Shown: positions 38,655 through 51,153 of the stretch, in pieces | How the letters are laid out: each line of letters opens with the position of its first letter | Position numbering within the stretch: position 1 is the stretch's first letter | Source of the DNA: Roseiarcus fermentans | GTDB lineage: Bacteria; Pseudomonadota; Alphaproteobacteria; Rhizobiales; Beijerinckiaceae | DNA length: 51,414 bases | NCBI RefSeq assembly: GCF_003315135.1 | Contig: NZ_QNRK01000046.1 | Span: 1-51,414 of the forward strand | Direction of reading: 5' to 3' | Position numbers and translations under genes: made by a program | The notes under the pieces: generated by a model | What the model saw: only the letters and a program-made list of their open reading frames with translations | What the model was told of the DNA's origin: nothing | Database searches by the model: none

Positions 38655-40280
38655 ATGGCTCCGCGCAAAGTGCTGATGGCGGCGAGCGGCGATCTGCGCC
38701 AGAGCGCCAACGAGACCTGTTGGCCGGCGCAGGCGGCGATGGAAGCCCAGGTGACGGAAGCGCTGGCGGCGTTCGGCGTCGAAGTCGAGCGCGCCCACCC
38801 CTACGACCCCGCCCGCCGGCACGGCTTCATCGCCAGCCAGAAGGAAGGCCTCGAGATTTTTTCGCGGATCGATTCCGCAACGCCGATCATCGTCGCCGAG
38901 GCGGTGTGGCAATACTCCAACCACGTCCTGCCCGGCCTGATCGGCCATCGCGCGCCGATCCTCACCGTCGCCAACTGGTCCGGTCAGTGGCCCGGCCTCG
39001 TCGGCATGCTGAACCTGAACGGCTCGCTGACCAAGGCCGGCGTCCCCTACTCCACCCTGTGGAGCGAAACCTTTTCGGACGACGCCTTCAAGACCCGACT
39101 GCACGAATGGCTGGAGACCGGCCGCGTCACCCACGACCTCTCGCATGTCCATCCCTTCGATCCCGCCGCGGCGCCGGCAAAGGCCCGCGCGGCGGCGAGC
39201 GAGGTGGCGCAGGATCTCCGCCGACGCAAGGCGATCATGGGCGTCTTCGACGAGGGCTGCATGGGGATGTACAACGCCATCATCCCGGACGAGCTCCTGT
39301 TCCCCCTCGGCGTGTTCAAGGAGCGGCTGTCGCAGTCCGCCCTCTACGCCGCCGCGCGCGAGGTGTCCGACCGCGAGGCGCACGGGGTGTACGACTGGCT
39401 CGTGGCCAGGGGTATGACCTTCCACTTCGGCAATGACCCGGAGACGGATCTCACCCTCGACCAGGTGCTCGACCAGTGCCGCATGTACATCGCCGCCGCC
39501 CGGATGGCGGAGACGTTTGGCTGCGACATGATCGGCATCCAGTACCAGCAGGGCCTGAAGGACCTGACGCCGGCCTCCGACCTCGCCGAGGGGATGCTCA
39601 ACAACGACGACCGCCCGCCGGTCGCGACCGCCGACGGCCGCGTCATTCGCGACGGCCGGGCGATTGTCCACTTCAACGAGGTCGACGAATGCGCCGGCCT
39701 CGACGCCCTGTTCACCAACCGCATCCACCGCGCGCTCGGCCAGCCGGTCGAGACGACGCTGCACGACATCCGCTGGGGCGACGCCGACCGCAGCGGCTCG
39801 ACCGACGACTACGTCTGGGTGTTCGAGATTTCCGGCGCCGCGCCCCCCGCCCACCACATCGGTGGATGGGCGGGCACCGACAGCCTGCGCCAGCCGCCGA
39901 TGTATTTTCGGCTCGGCGGCGGCACCGTGCGCGGGATCGCCAAGCCCGGCCCGATCGTCTGGTCGCGCGTCTATGTCGAGGACGGCCGGCTGAAAATGGA
40001 CCTCGGCCGCGCCCATGTCGCCGAACTGCCCCGGGCGGAGACGGAGCGGCGCTGGACCAGCACCACGCCGCAATGGCCGATCATGCACGCGGTGCTGCAC
40101 GGCGTGTCGCGCGACCAGCTGATGGCGCGCCACAAGGCCAACCACGTCCAGGTCGCCTACGCCAATTCGGACGCCGAGGCCGACCTGGCCATGGCGGCGA
40201 AGGCCTCGCTCGCCGCCGAACTCGGCCTCGAGGTGGCGCTGTGCGGCGCGAAGCCGGACGGGACGCCGCTGTTGCACTGA
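38655..40280 (+). CDS. L-fucose/L-arabinose isomerase-superfamily-like protein
   Basis: A 541-residue cytoplasmic protein with no signal or membrane segment. The early part ([62 protein letters not shown]) resembles the N-terminal sugar-binding Rossmann layers of fucose/arabinose isomerases. Later, [34 protein letters not shown] and [16 protein letters not shown] carry acidic residues where these enzymes bind metal. I assign the superfamily from this pattern only; substrate and activity are not established. It stands alone before the AT-rich island. Confidence 0.6.
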
Positions 40281-40983
40281 CGGCCGGGGCGACGCACAGA
40301 ACCGATCGCGTGTTGGAGCCGCGGTCGATGACCGCGGTCCCCGCTCAACCAGCGCGTGTACGCCCCCGTATTGCTGACGGCCACGATGACCGACCGCGAC
40401 GCCGCCCTCCCCCTCTTGCGGCACGCTGGCGGGTGAAACTCCGACGTTCCTGCGCCGACGACCGGAATCGACGGAAGGTCGCCATGGCAAGATCGCCGCC
40501 GCCAACGGCGCAAGTCCGCAGGTAAGCAGGCATTGGCTCCAGGGGCGGTCTCCCCTTTGTGATCCAGATAACAGCGTTACGAACCGGGGCCCGTATAAAC
40601 CGCCTCTCATGAGTTGGACGGCTGTCCTTATTCGCTCCTGCAAACGCAATACGATAATTTTACAAACCACGATCTAACACCGGATACCAAATCATGTTGG
40701 ATGGCGCCGCGGCGACTGCGCATGAATGTCTACGATTATCGCGGCTTATGGACTTATCGGTGCTGCCCATCGGCTGGTCGGCATCTTTCGATAGTCGGAT
40801 TATGCTTCAGGACGCCTCAGTAAATATACGTAATAGTACGTATATACCGGACAAAACATACCGAGCACTGTGCTCATCAAGCACGGAAGTATTCGCTTGT
40901 TATGATCGCTTGGCAATTACCAATCGCGATCATTTGCAACGGCGGCCGCTATTTGGTTCGAGCGACAGAAAGAGAGGTCGTTC
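40281..40983. other. Left border of the AT-rich island, no supported gene
   Basis: The first 250 bp keep the GC-rich character and include a perfect 8-bp hairpin (40319-40337, CCGCGGTC-GAT-GACCGCGG), a possible terminator for the isomerase-like gene. From about 40560 the base composition falls sharply and stays low to about 42920. Open frames of 69 and 97 codons occur here but show no coding signature. No tRNA or direct repeat marking an integration site was seen. Confidence 0.55.
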
Positions 40984-41211
40984 ATGAATGTGAAACATAC
41001 ATACGAAGGGGAATCGGGCAACGAGAGCTTACAAGAGGCTATTGAGGCGGCCCTCCGGATGCTCGCAGCAGACCTTAACCAAGGCGGCGTCAGGGATGCT
41101 TCTGCGTCCTGGGCCATCAGCGAGATATCCGGCACGCATGGCGGATTGGCAGGTTCCCGCAGCATCAAGGTGACGATCGCTTCAGAACGCACCCCGCCCT
41201 GGGGCGCCTAG
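40984..41211 (+). CDS. Dodecin-like small protein
   Basis: A 75-residue protein with GAGAGG upstream of the ATG. The pattern SLQEAIEAALRMLAADL (15-31), ASWAISEISG (41-50) and GSRSIKVTIASERT resembles dodecins: a Ser-Glu-Ala helix, a Trp-containing strand, then an alternating final strand. Dodecins are flavin- or coenzyme-A-binding 12-mers. The match is by layout only and the family's usual first strand (VYKVIELVG-like) is replaced. First possible gene of the AT-rich island, transcribed like the others. Confidence 0.5.
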   Translation: MNVKHTYEGESGNESLQEAIEAALRMLAADLNQGGVRDASASWAISEISGTHGGLAGSRSIKVTIASERTPPWGA

Positions 41212-41547
41212 CTGAAGCGGCTTGCACCGCTCCCTCGCTCTTCCGAAACACGGGATTGAAACGGAGCCATGGTCGAGCCGCTAAGGCGGCGCCAGACGAA
41301 AGGGGCGACCGATCGATAGGCTTGGCTTAACGCGCCACTGCTGCTCGTCAACAGGCCAATGTCACGATGGATTTCGCAGCCGACACCAACAATTGCTTTA
41401 CGCTTCTCTGCCACACGCCCCATCAGGCTGATCCGATATTACGGCGGCAGGCATTGCGACTTATCACATTATATCTGGTCGATCGCATCCCTGCAATACG
41501 CAATCCGCCTCGGGGGCGGGCACGACACATTGTAAGGAGTCTTCCTT
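41212..41547. other. Gene-free spacer before the CVNH lectin gene
   Basis: It should contain the promoter of the CVNH cassette. A 78-codon frame crosses it (41367-41603), but it overlaps the lectin start and has no coding character. Nothing else is recognised. Confidence 0.5.
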
Positions 41548-41868
41548 ATGGGCGATTTTTCGCATTCGTGCCAACATCCTCAATACGATCCTCAATCCAC
41601 TGAACTTCACGCTGAGTGCCGAACCTATGGCTTCTTTGGAACGTATCAGCCAACAACACTCCTTCTAGATCAGTATATCGGTAATATAAATGGACGTCTG
41701 ATGTTCGTTTCTTATCGTTTCTCTGCAACCTGCAAAAATTGTCGCCTTGGTGGCGAAGGTAACATATTACAATGTTATTGCGAGACAGAAAATGGTGATT
41801 GGATTTCAACAGAACTAGCCTTAGACGAGAGGATCGAGAACAATGACGGACACCTCAAATTTAAGTAG
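41548..41868 (+). CDS. Cyanovirin-N homology (CVNH) domain lectin
   Basis: A 106-residue protein consisting of one complete CVNH domain. The first repeat runs GDFSHSCQH ... LHAECRTYG ... TTLLLDQYIGNINGRLMF (residues 2-53). The second runs RFSATCKNCRLGG ... LQCYCETENGDWISTELALD ... ERIENNDGHLKF (57-105). This mirrors cyanovirin-N, with its FSQTC, LxxxC, LDxxIxNxDGxL signatures in each half. Six cysteines (8, 24, 62, 65, 76, 78) include the two pairs expected for disulfides. CVNH proteins bind mannose-rich glycans. No signal peptide is present. AAGGAG precedes the ATG. The 3' end overlaps the next gene by 26 bp. Confidence 0.9.
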   Translation: MGDFSHSCQHPQYDPQSTELHAECRTYGFFGTYQPTTLLLDQYIGNINGRLMFVSYRFSATCKNCRLGGEGNILQCYCETENGDWISTELALDERIENNDGHLKFK

Positions 41869-42382
41869 ACGCGCCGAGCCACGGAGCGCGTCGGCCCCGA
41901 TATCAGCTGCAACCGCCTCGCCGCCGATCCAGGCGCGAGATGTTCTCGCCAGTTTAACACGCTTGCAATCTGGACTTGTAATGAGCGTTATTGTAACGTC
42001 TGCCTTTATTTTTGTTCCTCCTCCCGCTAAAGCGACAACGGCAATTAGCGGATGTGACAACCAATCGCTTGCAACTGTATTGGTCGTTAATAGAGAACAC
42101 ACTGCCGACAGCGCGTACGTATCACCACGAACGTATGCCAAAAATTGTTATATGTGGATATCGCAGCATAAAGACAAGCCTGTGAGCGTGCAGACCGGGC
42201 GAGGAAACTGCATCATTTGGGACAGTAACTATAAACTCATGGGCCAGTGGGACGATGGTTCAGCGGAGTTCAAAATTAACGACGCGAGCGATGGCAAAGA
42301 TTATAGACTAATCATAGAGAGTACTGGAAACATTCGTTTTGAACAATGCAAGGGGACTGGGCAGGGAAAATGTGACGAGTGA
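41843..42382 (+). CDS. Cysteine-rich exported protein of unknown family
   Basis: A 179-residue protein overlapping the lectin gene, so probably translationally coupled to it. A polar 42-residue start precedes a hydrophobic segment (about 44-60, LVMSVIVTSAFIFVPPPAKA) ending in an AKA cleavage-like site at 62-64. A shorter start at the ATG at 41981 would give a conventional signal peptide. The mature part is small, with five cysteines (71, 102, 123, 169, 177) and a beta-rich segment NCIIWDSNYKLMGQWDDGSA. I do not recognise the family. Position between a lectin and a papain-fold protein suggests an envelope or extracellular partner. Confidence 0.75.
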   Translation: MTDTSNLSRRAEPRSASAPISAATASPPIQARDVLASLTRLQSGLVMSVIVTSAFIFVPPPAKATTAISGCDNQSLATVLVVNREHTADSAYVSPRTYAKNCYMWISQHKDKPVSVQTGRGNCIIWDSNYKLMGQWDDGSAEFKINDASDGKDYRLIIESTGNIRFEQCKGTGQGKCDE

Positions 42383-42421
42383 TTGCGCCGTGGCAGACGT
42401 TGATATCGGGAGGAAATCCTC

Positions 42422-42916
42422 ATGCCTCATTCATCGACACCAAAATATTGGCTTTTGCTAAGTATTTTTGTAATTTTAGGTTCAAATCTTATTGTTCATT
42501 CCGCAAAAGCGCAGCAGGATGGTGATTGCTCTATGCATGCAATTGGTTATCTTGTTGGGATACCGCCAGAAGAAGTTGCTGCTAGAACTGGATATATGCA
42601 AGGACCCTCCCATAATGAGAGTGATATAACCGATATGATGGCGCGGCTCAATATCGGCAACGGGATGCATCCTCATTTCACTTCACGGCAAGCCGCCTAC
42701 GACTACATGAATGCTCGTAACGATGGTCGTGACACATACTATATCATTGCTTATATTCCTCCCGGAGAAGGGGTCGGTCATGTCATTGATGCAAGATCAA
42801 GTGTTGCGGGGTCAAGTCGCCGCCTGACTTTTATTGATTGTCAGCAACTGAACAATAACGAACCCCCTGATAACTGTCCTCTTTATATCGTCTGGTTCGG
42901 GCGGTTCCTTCCCTGA
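42422..42916 (+). CDS. Exported papain-fold protein resembling Tox-PL
   Basis: A 164-residue protein with signal peptide (residues 1-30, cleavage after SAKA) and a small papain-like domain. C36 in QQDGDCSMHAIGYLVGIPPE, H120 in GEGVGHVIDARS and D139 followed by CQQ in LTFIDCQQ have the order and context of the Cys-His-Asp triad of papain-fold toxins (Tox-PL, glutamine deamidase-like): Cys then a hydrophobic helix, GH(x)(hydrophobic)(N/D), and (F/Y)(L/I)DxQ. GGGAGG precedes the ATG, and the gene is 39 bp after the previous one. It could deamidate or cleave a target protein. A peptidase role is equally possible. Confidence 0.65.
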   Translation: MPHSSTPKYWLLLSIFVILGSNLIVHSAKAQQDGDCSMHAIGYLVGIPPEEVAARTGYMQGPSHNESDITDMMARLNIGNGMHPHFTSRQAAYDYMNARNDGRDTYYIIAYIPPGEGVGHVIDARSSVAGSSRRLTFIDCQQLNNNEPPDNCPLYIVWFGRFLP

Positions 42917-43166
42917 GGGTTTTCAGACAACGGCCCTTTGAGGCAGTGAACTGTTCGGCATTTCGGAGCGACTCCTCCGGCTCGATACGGCGAGTCGCAG
43001 CGGCGGCCTCGCTGCGCCGAGGCCCCTCGGGAAAGCGAATCGCCAACCCCCTCACCCGCGCTATTTGGCGCCCATACCGCCACGGGCGCCCGAGGTCGCC
43101 GACCTCCTCGACGATCCCGCCTGCGACCGTTGAAAACGTCGCCCGAGCCGCGCTCGGCAACCGCCG

Positions 43167-45164
43167 CTACAGCGCCCGCGCGACCTCGTAGGCGTCCCAG
43201 ATCGCGTACATGATGTTCTGCACCCGGCGGGCGTCGCCGAACACGTAGACCTCGGGCGCGGCGTTGCGCACCTTGTCGTAAAGGCGCCGCTCCGGCTCGT
43301 AGCCGATCGCCAGAATGGCCGAATCCGCCGCGACGAAGGTCTCCGTGTCGCCGGTCCTGACCAGGAATCCGCCCTCGGTCCAATGCTCGACCGTGCTCGA
43401 CGTCATCAGCCCGACCTTGCGGAACCGCAGCAGCTCCTTCAGCATCTCGGCGTTGGCGTGGCAGAGCGGCCCGGCGCGGGCGAGGATCTTCGGCTCGACC
43501 TCGACCAGCGTGGTCGCCTTGCCCTTTTCGCTCAGCCACAGCGCCAGTTCGCAGCCGACCAGCCCCGCCCCGACGATGACGGTGGCGTCGTCGGCGGGCT
43601 TGTCGCCGTTCAGCACCTCCTCCGCGGTATAGACGTGCGGCTCGTTGGCGAGCGGAAGCAGCTTCGGCTTCGCCCCCGTCGCCACGATCAGCACGTCCGG
43701 CGCCGCGCGCGCCACCAGGTCCTCGGTCACCTCGGTGTTGAAGGTCATGGGAATCTTCAGCGCGCGCAGCTCTCGCTCGTACCAGCGAATGAGCGCGTGA
43801 TCGTCGGCCTTGAAGTCGGGAACTCCGCCGGGAATCACCACCCCGCCGAGGCGGTCCGACTTCTCGTAGAGCGCGACCACGTGGCCGCGCAGCGCCGCCA
43901 CCCGCGCCGCTTCGAGGCCGGCGACGCCGCCGCCGACCACCATGACGTGCTTGCGCTCGAGCGCCGGCGTCAAGCCGTACTCGGCCTCCCGCCCGCAGGC
44001 GGGGTTGACCGCGCACGACACCTGGCCGAAGGCGGCGAGGCGGCCCATGCAACCTTCCTGGCAGGAGAGGCACGGCCGGATGCGGTCGGTCTTGCCGGCC
44101 CGGACCTTCTGCGGCAGGTAGGGATCGGCGAGCAGCGGCCGGGCGAGGCCGACGAGGTCGGTCTTCCCCGACCGGATCGCCTCGGCCGCGAGGTCCGGAT
44201 CGTCCATGCGCCCGGCGGTGATGACGGGGACGCTCACCGCCTGCTTCAGGATCGCATTGTACGGCAGGTAGAGGCCCTTGGCCTGGTACATCGGCGGATG
44301 GCTCCAGTACCAGCTGTCATAGGAACCGACGTCGCCGTTGAACGCGTCGTAGCCGGCCTGTTCCAGAATCTTCGCCGCCTCGATCCCTTCCGGGATGTCG
44401 CGCCCCTTTTCCTCGAACGCTTCGCCCGGCAGGCCGCCCTTCAGCCAGTCCTTGATGAAGCTCTTGAGCGAATAGCGAAGCGAGACCGGGTAGTCCGCGC
44501 CGCAACGCGCCTTGATCGCCTGCACGATCTCGGTCGCGAAGCGAAGCCGGTTCTCCAGATTGCCGCCGTATTCGTCCCGGCGCTGGTTGAACATGGCGAT
44601 GGCGAACTGGTCGAGCAGATAGCCCTCGTGGACGGCGTGGATCTCGACGCCGTCGAAGCCCGCCGTGCGCGCGATCTCGGCCGAATCCGCGAACTTGCGG
44701 ACCAGGGTCTTGATCTCGACGTGGGTCAGTTCGCGGCACACCACGCCCGGAAGCCAGCGGTGCGGGATCGGCGACGGGCCGACCGCCGTCGAGCCGACCA
44801 CCGAGGGGACGCTGACCCGGCCGAAGCCGGCGGAAAGCTGCAGGAACATGCGCGTGTCATAGGCGTGCACGCGCTCGGTCAGCACCTTTCCGGTCTTGAC
44901 GAAATTGAGCGGGTTGAGGGTCGGGCACGGCATCGACGGCAGCGCGCACCGTTCGATTTCGTTCTCGACCATCGTGACGCCGGTGATGATCAGGCCTGCC
45001 CCGCCCCGCGCCCGCTCGACGTAATAATTGACGCCGCGCGCGTTGAAGGTCCCGTCGGCGTCGCACAGCCCCCCGGGGCCGATCGGCTCCATCACGTAGC
45101 GGTTCTTGATCCCGAGTCTGCCGATCCGGGTCGGAGAAAACAGGATGTCGTGCGAGTTTTTCAT
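43167..45164 (-). CDS. Old yellow enzyme-type NADH:flavin oxidoreductase / dienoyl-CoA reductase-like
   Basis: A 665-residue three-part flavoprotein. The FMN barrel (about 1-365) shows RIGRLGIKNRYVMEPIGPGG and FDGVEIHAVHEGYLLDQFAIAMFNQRRDEYGG. The iron-sulfur cysteines are in RPCLSCQEGCMGR with a later CAVNPACG. The C-terminal FAD/NAD part (about 405-660) has HVMVVGGGVAGLEAARVAALRGH and VIVGAGLVGCELALWL. The architecture is that of 2,4-dienoyl-CoA reductase and trimethylamine dehydrogenase. The substrate is undetermined; a methylamine or enoyl/enone role is possible. It faces the AT-rich island, whose last gene converges on it. Confidence 0.9.
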   Translation of the reverse strand: MKNSHDILFSPTRIGRLGIKNRYVMEPIGPGGLCDADGTFNARGVNYYVERARGGAGLIITGVTMVENEIERCALPSMPCPTLNPLNFVKTGKVLTERVHAYDTRMFLQLSAGFGRVSVPSVVGSTAVGPSPIPHRWLPGVVCRELTHVEIKTLVRKFADSAEIARTAGFDGVEIHAVHEGYLLDQFAIAMFNQRRDEYGGNLENRLRFATEIVQAIKARCGADYPVSLRYSLKSFIKDWLKGGLPGEAFEEKGRDIPEGIEAAKILEQAGYDAFNGDVGSYDSWYWSHPPMYQAKGLYLPYNAILKQAVSVPVITAGRMDDPDLAAEAIRSGKTDLVGLARPLLADPYLPQKVRAGKTDRIRPCLSCQEGCMGRLAAFGQVSCAVNPACGREAEYGLTPALERKHVMVVGGGVAGLEAARVAALRGHVVALYEKSDRLGGVVIPGGVPDFKADDHALIRWYERELRALKIPMTFNTEVTEDLVARAAPDVLIVATGAKPKLLPLANEPHVYTAEEVLNGDKPADDATVIVGAGLVGCELALWLSEKGKATTLVEVEPKILARAGPLCHANAEMLKELLRFRKVGLMTSSTVEHWTEGGFLVRTGDTETFVAADSAILAIGYEPERRLYDKVRNAAPEVYVFGDARRVQNIMYAIWDAYEVARAL

Positions 45165-49925: not shown

Positions 49926-50022
49926 GGGAGCGTCAATGGCTCAGCGAATCGGTGTCTGGCAAGCTAACACGCGCGGATGCCGAACCAAACGGGAACGGAC
50001 GTGTCGGGAACGTGTCGGGTCG

Positions 50023-50427
50023 CTACTCCAGCCAATTCTCGACTTGAAGGCCGCTGACTCGACGGAAGGCGGAATCGGCGGTCACGAGCGGCATCCGCAG
50101 CGCAAGGGCGTGGGCGGCAATCAGGAGATCGTTCGCGCTGATTGGCGTACCGGCGTTCTCGAGCTGCGTGCGGATCGCGGCGTAGTCTGCGTCCGCGGGC
50201 ATGTCGAGCGGCAGCACCGGGAGGCGCGCGAGGAGACCTTCAACCAGATCGCCTATACGGAATGATTTTCCCTTTGCCGCGCCATAACGCAACTCCGCAG
50301 CGACGATGATGCTTACGCACACCGTATCCGCGCCCGCCCTCTCAGTCCGCTGAGCCGCCTTGCCGAGCGGATTTCGGATGAGGTCCGAGACAATGTTGGT
50401 GTCCAACATGTAGAGAAGCCGAGACAT
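50023..50427 (-). CDS. vapC: VapC-family PIN-domain toxin
   Basis: A 134-residue PIN ribonuclease close to classical VapC. D9 is in YMLDTNIVSDLIRNP, E45 in IVAAELRYGAAKG, D100 in ISANDLLIAAHAL, and D118 in LVTADSAFRRV. It begins 15 bp after the stop of the chimeric antitoxin gene on the same strand. It is expected to cleave tRNA-fMet or similar RNA when free. Confidence 0.92.
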   Translation of the reverse strand: MSRLLYMLDTNIVSDLIRNPLGKAAQRTERAGADTVCVSIIVAAELRYGAAKGKSFRIGDLVEGLLARLPVLPLDMPADADYAAIRTQLENAGTPISANDLLIAAHALALRMPLVTADSAFRRVSGLQVENWLE

Positions 50428-50442
50428 TCTATTTTCGATCGT

Positions 50443-51153
50443 CTATAACGGAACCACAAGGCAATAAAAGTCGTGGTTGACGTCCCACGCGATGTCATCG
50501 TTCGCAAGTTTTTCCCCGAATCTCTTGCGGTATTCACCGACAGTCTTGTCGGCGCCGCTCAAAATAAATTCAATCCGTGCTCTCGATTTGGAACCTTGCT
50601 GTTTTCGACTATCTTTTTTACGCACGTGGAACAGCGTGCTGTCCGGCACGTCTATGTCATCTCCGAACAAGGTCGGCCTTCCATCCTTGACTGTGCCCGC
50701 TTCCCAACGGGCTATGACGGACGGACCGTGCGCCACGCGGCCTTTTGCGGCGATCTGCAAGACCCTAACGCCTCCGTTGGGCTGCAACTGAATATCATGC
50801 ACCTCCTGACCGATATCGGGCTCATCGAGCGGAAGTAGACCGGCGTCCACGTCGGGAAATTCCTCGTCCAAAGGCTCAATCGATTTCAGCCATTCGATAA
50901 GGCCCGTCACCGCAGGCTTTTCCACAACCAGCCGGTCGCCCTCGCGGCGGATCACCGCTCCCGGCGCCCGCGAGCGCACGAGGCGCTCGACCTCGTCGAG
51001 GCTGAAAGTCCGGGTCGGACGCTGGGCCGCTTCGAGTTCGTCGATCTTTTCGACAATCGCTTCGCGCGCATAGGAGCTCATCGAGCGGCCGGTGCGCCGC
51101 GCGAGCTCGTCCAGCCGGCTTTCGATGTCTTCGGGCAATCGCAGGGCCAACAT
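50443..51153 (-). CDS. Chimeric antitoxin: RHH N-terminus, VapB/AbrB-type tail, unknown extension
   Basis: A 236-residue protein, three times the normal antitoxin length. Residues 1-43 (LALRLPEDIESRLDELARR and on through SSYAREAIVEKIDEL) are a RelB/DUF6290-like ribbon-helix-helix domain. Residues about 62-113 (AVIRREGDRLVVEKP, GLIEWLKSIEPLDEEFPDVD) match the C-terminal part of AbrB-type VapB antitoxins, without their SpoVT/AbrB DNA-binding start. Residues 114-236 are an extension I cannot assign, of lower GC and rich in charged residues (VRKKDSRKQQGSKSRARIEF). GGAGG precedes the ATG at 51153. It should neutralise the downstream VapC and repress through the palindrome at 51172-51189. Confidence 0.75.
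   Translation of the reverse strand: MLALRLPEDIESRLDELARRTGRSMSSYAREAIVEKIDELEAAQRPTRTFSLDEVERLVRSRAPGAVIRREGDRLVVEKPAVTGLIEWLKSIEPLDEEFPDVDAGLLPLDEPDIGQEVHDIQLQPNGGVRVLQIAAKGRVAHGPSVIARWEAGTVKDGRPTLFGDDIDVPDSTLFHVRKKDSRKQQGSKSRARIEFILSGADKTVGEYRKRFGEKLANDDIAWDVNHDFYCLVVPL

Follow-up and report, generated by a model that had tools for sequence, protein, structure and literature searches.

The lectin MVL of Microcystis viridis has the N-linked oligomannoside core as its ligand, according to the title of a reference cited in PMC6359319. The papain-like Tox-PL1 domain is characterized by the signature NC-H-DxQ (PMC3482391). Likenesses to both were found among proteins encoded side by side in an AT-rich island of the alphaproteobacterium Roseiarcus fermentans. 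The stretch of DNA analysed, hereafter referred to as the window, is 51,414 nucleotides long and makes up one whole contig (NZ_QNRK01000046.1) of a 6.79-Mb, 90-contig genome. The island occupies positions 40560..42950 (no strand assigned) and carries four genes on the + strand, named here A, B, C and D. We read it, at a probability of about 0.45, as a horizontally assembled exoprotein cassette in which B would serve as a glycan binder and D as a papain-like effector. The main discovery of the analysis is gene C, which sequence comparison firmly places in a new protein family and which appears to be fitted with a signal segment here.

Gene B (41548-41868, + strand) encodes a 106-residue protein that shares 49 identities with MVL over ~104 positions, including all six cysteines, and like MVL it has no signal segment. 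Its setting differs from that of MVL, since B lies in a chromosomal island of a bacterium rich in guanine and cytosine (GC), upstream of genes for predicted exported proteins, and its sugar binding is a prediction. Gene D (42422-42916, + strand) encodes 164 residues with a putative signal segment at residues ~1-30 and the arrangement C36-H120-D139-C-Q141. Cys, His and DxQ stand in the same order as in Tox-PL1, and three of the four signature elements are present. In contrast to Tox-PL1, however, D has Asp rather than Asn before the Cys, gave no Pfam match and is a stand-alone protein with a signal segment, outside any polymorphic toxin.

Gene C, its relatives and the neighbouring protein E

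Gene C (41843-42382, + strand) falls into two parts. The N-terminal extension (41843-42034) contains a putative Sec-type signal segment that ends in AKA and reaches a 15-residue Kyte-Doolittle maximum of 2.41. The remaining 115 residues (42035-42382) form the family domain, delimited by homology to seven relatives. No match to C was found in Pfam, NCBIfam or PDB. A tblastn search found a protein encoded by a Streptomyces plasmid (WP_327250056; 54.5% over 100 residues, E 3e-29), and six further loci were picked from 53 pattern matches by two-sequence alignment. They belong to four Streptomyces species, Nannocystis sp. RBIL2 and one Acidobacteriota metagenome-assembled genome (MAG), and their products are 42–57% identical to window C; for the family across Actinomycetota, Myxococcota and Acidobacteriota the identity is 42–58%. 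The family is rare: a single genome out of 235 in the phylum of Nannocystis, the Nannocystis genome itself, was found to contain it. An alignment of seven defined a family core of GCxNQS, YxWISQHKD and CxxWD, all present in window C.

The reading of each of the seven relatives starts at MTT and includes no signal peptide. At four loci (L046, L047, L048 and L050) the longest in-frame open reading frame begins at MTT, which excludes a longer leader; at the other three (L043, L049 and L051) the open frame extends upstream beyond this start. Window C departs from the signal-less state of its relatives by a 64-residue N-terminal extension with the signal segment, and the residues matching the relatives' start follow the AKA site directly. 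Because homology begins exactly after AKA, a signal peptide would seem to have been added at the first residue of a family that apparently has none elsewhere. The domain of window C has five cysteines, three more than the two common to the relatives, and the extra ones would suit an oxidising compartment.

A second protein, E (88–89 residues), is encoded next to C in six of the seven relatives. Its gene starts 10–96 bp downstream of C, as counted from the conserved Met of E (L043 8353-8619, L046 3338-3607, L047 8371-8637, L048 8401-8667, L049 8329-8598 and L051 8359-8625). Such pairs were found at all five Streptomyces loci and in Nannocystis, that is, in two phyla. The E proteins share the conserved sequence TGNWVYY...HFSRHVDNP...DHMATND; they had no PDB match, and one of the six members gave a single weak Pfam row (E 0.062). 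The C domains of the pairs are 52–57% identical to that of the window. They differ from it in being read without a signal peptide, in having two cysteines and in having E as partner instead of a lectin and D. At the Acidobacteriota locus (L050) no E was seen among the open reading frames read, and the C relative is preceded, at a distance of 226 bp, by the gene for a protein with a Ricin_B lectin domain (37.0 bits, cut-off 29). Both families appear to be undescribed, as judged from the libraries searched, none of which recognised them; the literature was not searched for either family.

This neighbourhood bears on an alternative that we consider unlikely, namely that C is a lectin-like or membrane-active β protein, and that C with E and C with a lectin (in the window and in L050) represent alternative forms of a single binary system to which D is accessory. 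The adjacency of C and E in two phyla and the ricin-B lectin beside C in L050 are consistent with such a system. So is an AlphaFold model of C, a low-confidence all-β structure with a predicted local distance difference test (pLDDT) score of 48.7, which is in itself uninformative. Against it, a Foldseek search with this low-confidence model yielded no fold match at E 0.001 or better; the low-scoring matches were mostly FGF-like β-trefoils (best E 0.25, TM ~0.2) and were not used. Also against it, no E relative was seen among the listed open reading frames of the window, the host genome not having been searched for E.

The lectin B and the putative effector D

The initial annotation had called B a CVNH lectin, and profile searches agreed with it. 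B matched Pfam PF08881 with 78.6 bits (cut-off 24.5; E 6.7e-22) over profile positions 1–102 of 102 and NCBIfam NF052356 with 105.5 bits (cut-off 80). The protein thus exceeds the curated cut-offs of both libraries across the whole domain. Its match to PDB entry 2y1s had an E of 2.5e-24. On this comparison B is firmly predicted to be a real MVL-type CVNH lectin.

Among 199 genomes of the family, B matched one, its own. CVNH proteins were matched in 9 of 385 genomes of the class, own included, with 10 matching places outside the own genome. At four of these places (L032, L040, L033 and L035) different CVNH proteins are encoded, with signal-like starts as judged by eye, and neither C nor D was seen by eye beside them. 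At one of them (L040, in genome G463), the CVNH protein with its signal-like start is surrounded by several others of unknown type that look exported. Plasmids gave no match to B at E 0.01 and three weak places at E 10, the best at 0.4.

The same annotation had assigned D a papain fold. The support for this assignment is the C-H-DxQ motif; profile searches gave none. The hydrophobic N-terminal segment of D also ends in AKA and has a 15-residue Kyte-Doolittle maximum of 2.55. The best PDB sequence match, PaJOS, which we take to be a Josephin-type cysteine protease, was not significant (E 0.71) and aligned at the apparent Cys box. Judging from the motif, the most likely role of D is that of a papain-like (Tox-PL1-like) enzyme, either a cysteine peptidase or a glutamine deamidase, with catalysis a prediction. 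At E≤0.01, D matched 4 of 199 family genomes and 2 of 299 phylum genomes, its own among them in each case. The four matches outside its own genome were rejected as chance similarity, being in frame with parts of unrelated proteins: presumably the start of leucyl-tRNA synthetase (L003 and L004), an LptC-like open reading frame (L005) and a DUF885-type protein (L042). A phage match (E 0.3) was likewise discarded, as it was antisense to an annotated gene in the one record checked. A genome search with PF15644 was uninformative, matching none of 299 genomes and none of 14 controls.

The adjacency of C and D, both with predicted signal segments, raises the possibility that C is a secreted inhibitor (immunity protein) of D. 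The two would form a pair of cysteine peptidase and inhibitor, and the lectin would be a passenger. Inhibitors encoded next to secreted cysteine proteases are known. For Tox-PL1 in particular, Imm35 is described as a likely inhibitor (PMC3482391), which we count in favour of such a pair. The relatives of C speak against it, however: they are read as signal-less, searches of six genomes with such relatives yielded no D, and six of the seven adjoin E instead. We regard an inhibitor role of C as improbable, the least probable of the explanations considered.

Origin and composition of the island

The island, ~2.4 kb in length, lies between an L-fucose-isomerase-like gene on the + strand, which ends at 40280, and an FMN/FAD oxidoreductase (flavoprotein) gene on the minus strand (43167-45164), recognised by Pfam. 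A sharp drop in base composition, pointed out in the initial annotation, was borne out by GC measurements. The GC content of 40560-42920 is 0.500 (50.0%) versus 0.694 (69.4%) in the remaining window. Windows of 2361 bp outside the island have a mean GC of 0.695, a standard deviation of 0.020 and a minimum of 0.637, which places the island ~10 standard deviations lower. GC at third codon positions (GC3) is 0.39 in B, 0.49 in C and 0.38 in D, versus 0.92 in both flanking genes, with A intermediate (0.67). Within the island, GC is 0.493 at 40560-40983, 0.608 at 40984-41340, 0.472 over B and C and 0.453 over D; read from left to right, the series is 0.49, 0.61, 0.54, 0.47 and 0.45. A 60-bp stretch at the junction of B and C (41880-41939) has a GC of 0.73. 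Elsewhere in the window, GC falls to 0.58–0.60 at 50001-51000, close to the contig end.

A 6.5-kb query matched all 11 genomes of the genus, own included, mostly over short stretches; a long match to a flanking gene was obtained in three other genus genomes. One of these, G138, matches ~120 bp at the end of the isomerase gene as well as the flavoprotein gene (88% identity); their order is kept, and the distance between them is ~355 bp as compared to 2.9 kb in the window. When the island was compared by blastn with the stretch between the flanks in G138, only matches of at most 15 bp were obtained, with E 0.5 or worse. Because the flanks sit together without the island in this same-genus genome, we conclude that the island is imported, horizontally acquired DNA. 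Native DNA is ruled out by the contrast in GC and GC3 together with the absence of the island between the same flanks in G138. The foreign origin proposed earlier is supported, and the objection that the region might be native in all relatives fails. The isomerase gene of G138 is itself truncated, and the two other genomes, G167 and G095, carry other genes to the right of the isomerase, so the site is variable. In G138 the isomerase remnant (~last 120 bp) adjoins an unrelated exported-looking open reading frame (L027 2919-3395), the site being rearranged differently there.

Of the usual features of genomic islands, the locus shows a foreign composition and is missing from a relative; an integrase, a tRNA site and flanking direct repeats were not found. 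No tRNA was found in the window, no repeats of at least 12 nt bounding the island were found in 40200-43300, and inspection of the window's open reading frames by eye revealed no integrase (8 proteins were scanned against Pfam). This agrees with the earlier remark that neither integrase nor tRNA is visible. Anti-phage profiles (PADLOC) gave no match, the viral contigs scanned contained no relatives, and a PHROGs profile search produced no usable match (best E 0.048).

Upstream of B lies gene A (40984-41211, + strand), which was absent from the gene list of the initial annotation. It encodes 75 residues without a signal peptide, is preceded by a GAGAGG stretch and belongs to a small family common to Tolypothrix/Microchaete plasmids. 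A is 35% identical to the plasmid relative over 62 residues, with a pairwise E of 4e-10 in a single comparison and an E of 0.1 by tblastn in plasmids. The relative's protein is identical in three plasmids and therefore counts once. The two Tolypothrix plasmids fetched encode it in an array of genes on one strand, together with an S8 peptidase, a PrcB protein, lysozyme or its pieces, a protein with a ribonuclease domain (so annotated in one plasmid) and a 42-residue half CVNH; an integrase gene adjoins the array. The array resembles the island in combining an A relative with a CVNH half domain on one strand. It differs in that no C or D was seen in it by eye, and the relation of A is distant (35%). 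One of the arrays (L072 217-8151), which comprises all of these proteins and stops at the integrase, has the look of a set of effectors. It also encodes a 153-residue protein (L072 4821-5282) with an HxD...SxGC pattern and no Pfam match; we take this pattern to resemble that of L,D-transpeptidases.

Between A and B, the stretch 41256..41345 (+ strand) is probably what remains of the 3′ end of a decayed group II intron, as suggested by similarity to copies elsewhere. About 50 bp of it are 86–90% identical to copies in Sinorhizobium and in genome G193. In Sinorhizobium (plasmids) the similar sequence immediately follows domain V of a group II intron, and in G193 it recurs near contig ends. A match to Rfam RF00029 (domain V-VI) that reaches the threshold lies directly upstream of the repeat in one of four fetched loci (L045), and the window itself gave no Rfam hit. 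Folding of the stretch revealed nothing notable (z −0.20).

Joint cassette or independent cargo

The three tightly spaced rightward genes described in the initial annotation are intact at 41548-41868 (B), 41843-42382 (C) and 42422-42916 (D). B and C overlap by 26 bp, C and D are separated by 39 bp, and a purine-rich Shine-Dalgarno-like stretch precedes every start. Judging from the overlap, the short gap and these stretches, B, C and D probably form the core of one transcript, to which we attach moderate confidence. A, B and C are considered real genes because of homology; D is a predicted gene, judging from its signal segment, start site and motif, and no relative was found to corroborate it.

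The strongest competitor of the cassette is a cargo hotspot, a heap of small genes, A to D, acquired independently, each useful or neutral alone and without joint function. We give this explanation a substantial chance, while holding it to be less likely than not. The relatives of A and C occur in different phyla with different neighbours, no second instance of the exact B-C-D trio was found, and A is separated from B by what is probably a relic of a group II intron. In addition, GC ranges from 0.45 to 0.61 between parts of the island, and each of the three same-genus genomes with a long flank match has a different arrangement at the site. A heap of unrelated genes does not, however, readily accommodate the operon-like packing of B, C and D and their similarly low GC3, or the recurrence of C beside a lectin gene in L050.

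Several observations weigh against the exoprotein cassette. B has no hydrophobic segment (15-residue Kyte-Doolittle maximum 0.45), so the term "secreted", which the initial annotation applied to the whole system, would hold for C and D with their predicted signal segments and on its face does not apply to the lectin. D had no profile match in Pfam, NCBIfam or PHROGs, with papain-like toxin families giving none at E≤5, and its single-sequence AlphaFold model was useless (pLDDT 39.4). Relatives of D were found neither in genome contigs, viral contigs or plasmids nor in the six genomes with C relatives, all of which also lack CVNH in the searches made, and it is E rather than a lectin or D that pairs with C in six of the seven relatives. 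The uneven GC within the island fits a composite origin. Promoter- and terminator-like sites were at chance level, and the lack of an anti-phage profile match also counts against the cassette. Finally, open-frame length alone is a weak argument for the genes. The open frames number 110 (B), 185 (C) and 170 (D) residues; the longest frame in 200 two-strand shuffles of the island had a median of 121, a 95% point of 170 and a maximum of 219 residues. In + strand shuffles, a frame of at least 185 residues appeared in 3 of 500, and frames of both 185 and 170 residues in none of 500.

Conserved co-occurrence, suggested as a check in the initial annotation, held in part. The strict trio was found nowhere else, an outcome named there as a refutation. 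A C relative lies by a ricin-B lectin gene and an A relative by a half CVNH. Relatives of two of the four island genes, A and C, thus sit near lectins or lytic enzymes elsewhere, which is suggestive of a shared exoprotein theme; a joint function of B, C and D is plausible, and the case for it is weak. No paper was found on cyanovirin-N together with contractile injection, or on cyanovirin together with papain-like proteins and operons.

According to the exoprotein cassette that we favour, the cargo would have been acquired horizontally and inserted between two resident metabolic genes. B would be a leaderless lectin that binds high-mannose or chitobiose-core glycans once released. C, a signal-less family protein elsewhere, would be fused to a signal here, and C and D would be exported by their own Sec signals to the periplasm and perhaps beyond. 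Its likeliest use would be to antagonise glycan-bearing competitors, fungi or protists or to scavenge from them, with the lectin attaching and D acting as the catalytic effector. Export, catalysis, joint function and target may each be as proposed. A bolder version, which we think doubtful, envisages a mobile system of exoproteins of an undescribed kind. It would pair an exchangeable lectin (CVNH here, ricin-B at the Acidobacteriota locus) with a C protein, present in three other phyla; here C would be signal-fused and joined to a stand-alone Tox-PL1-like cysteine effector to give a lectin-guided secreted weapon.

If the genes are merely unrelated cargo, the locus amounts to a small island of the common kind that includes one new protein family. 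If the cassette is real, it would provide a function for the C family, which spans this host as well as Actinomycetota, Myxococcota and Acidobacteriota, and for its neighbour E. A further point of interest would be a signal-less protein made exported by a signal peptide added exactly at its first residue. A small mobile cassette combining a lectin with a cysteine effector would then constitute a compact, testable secreted system.

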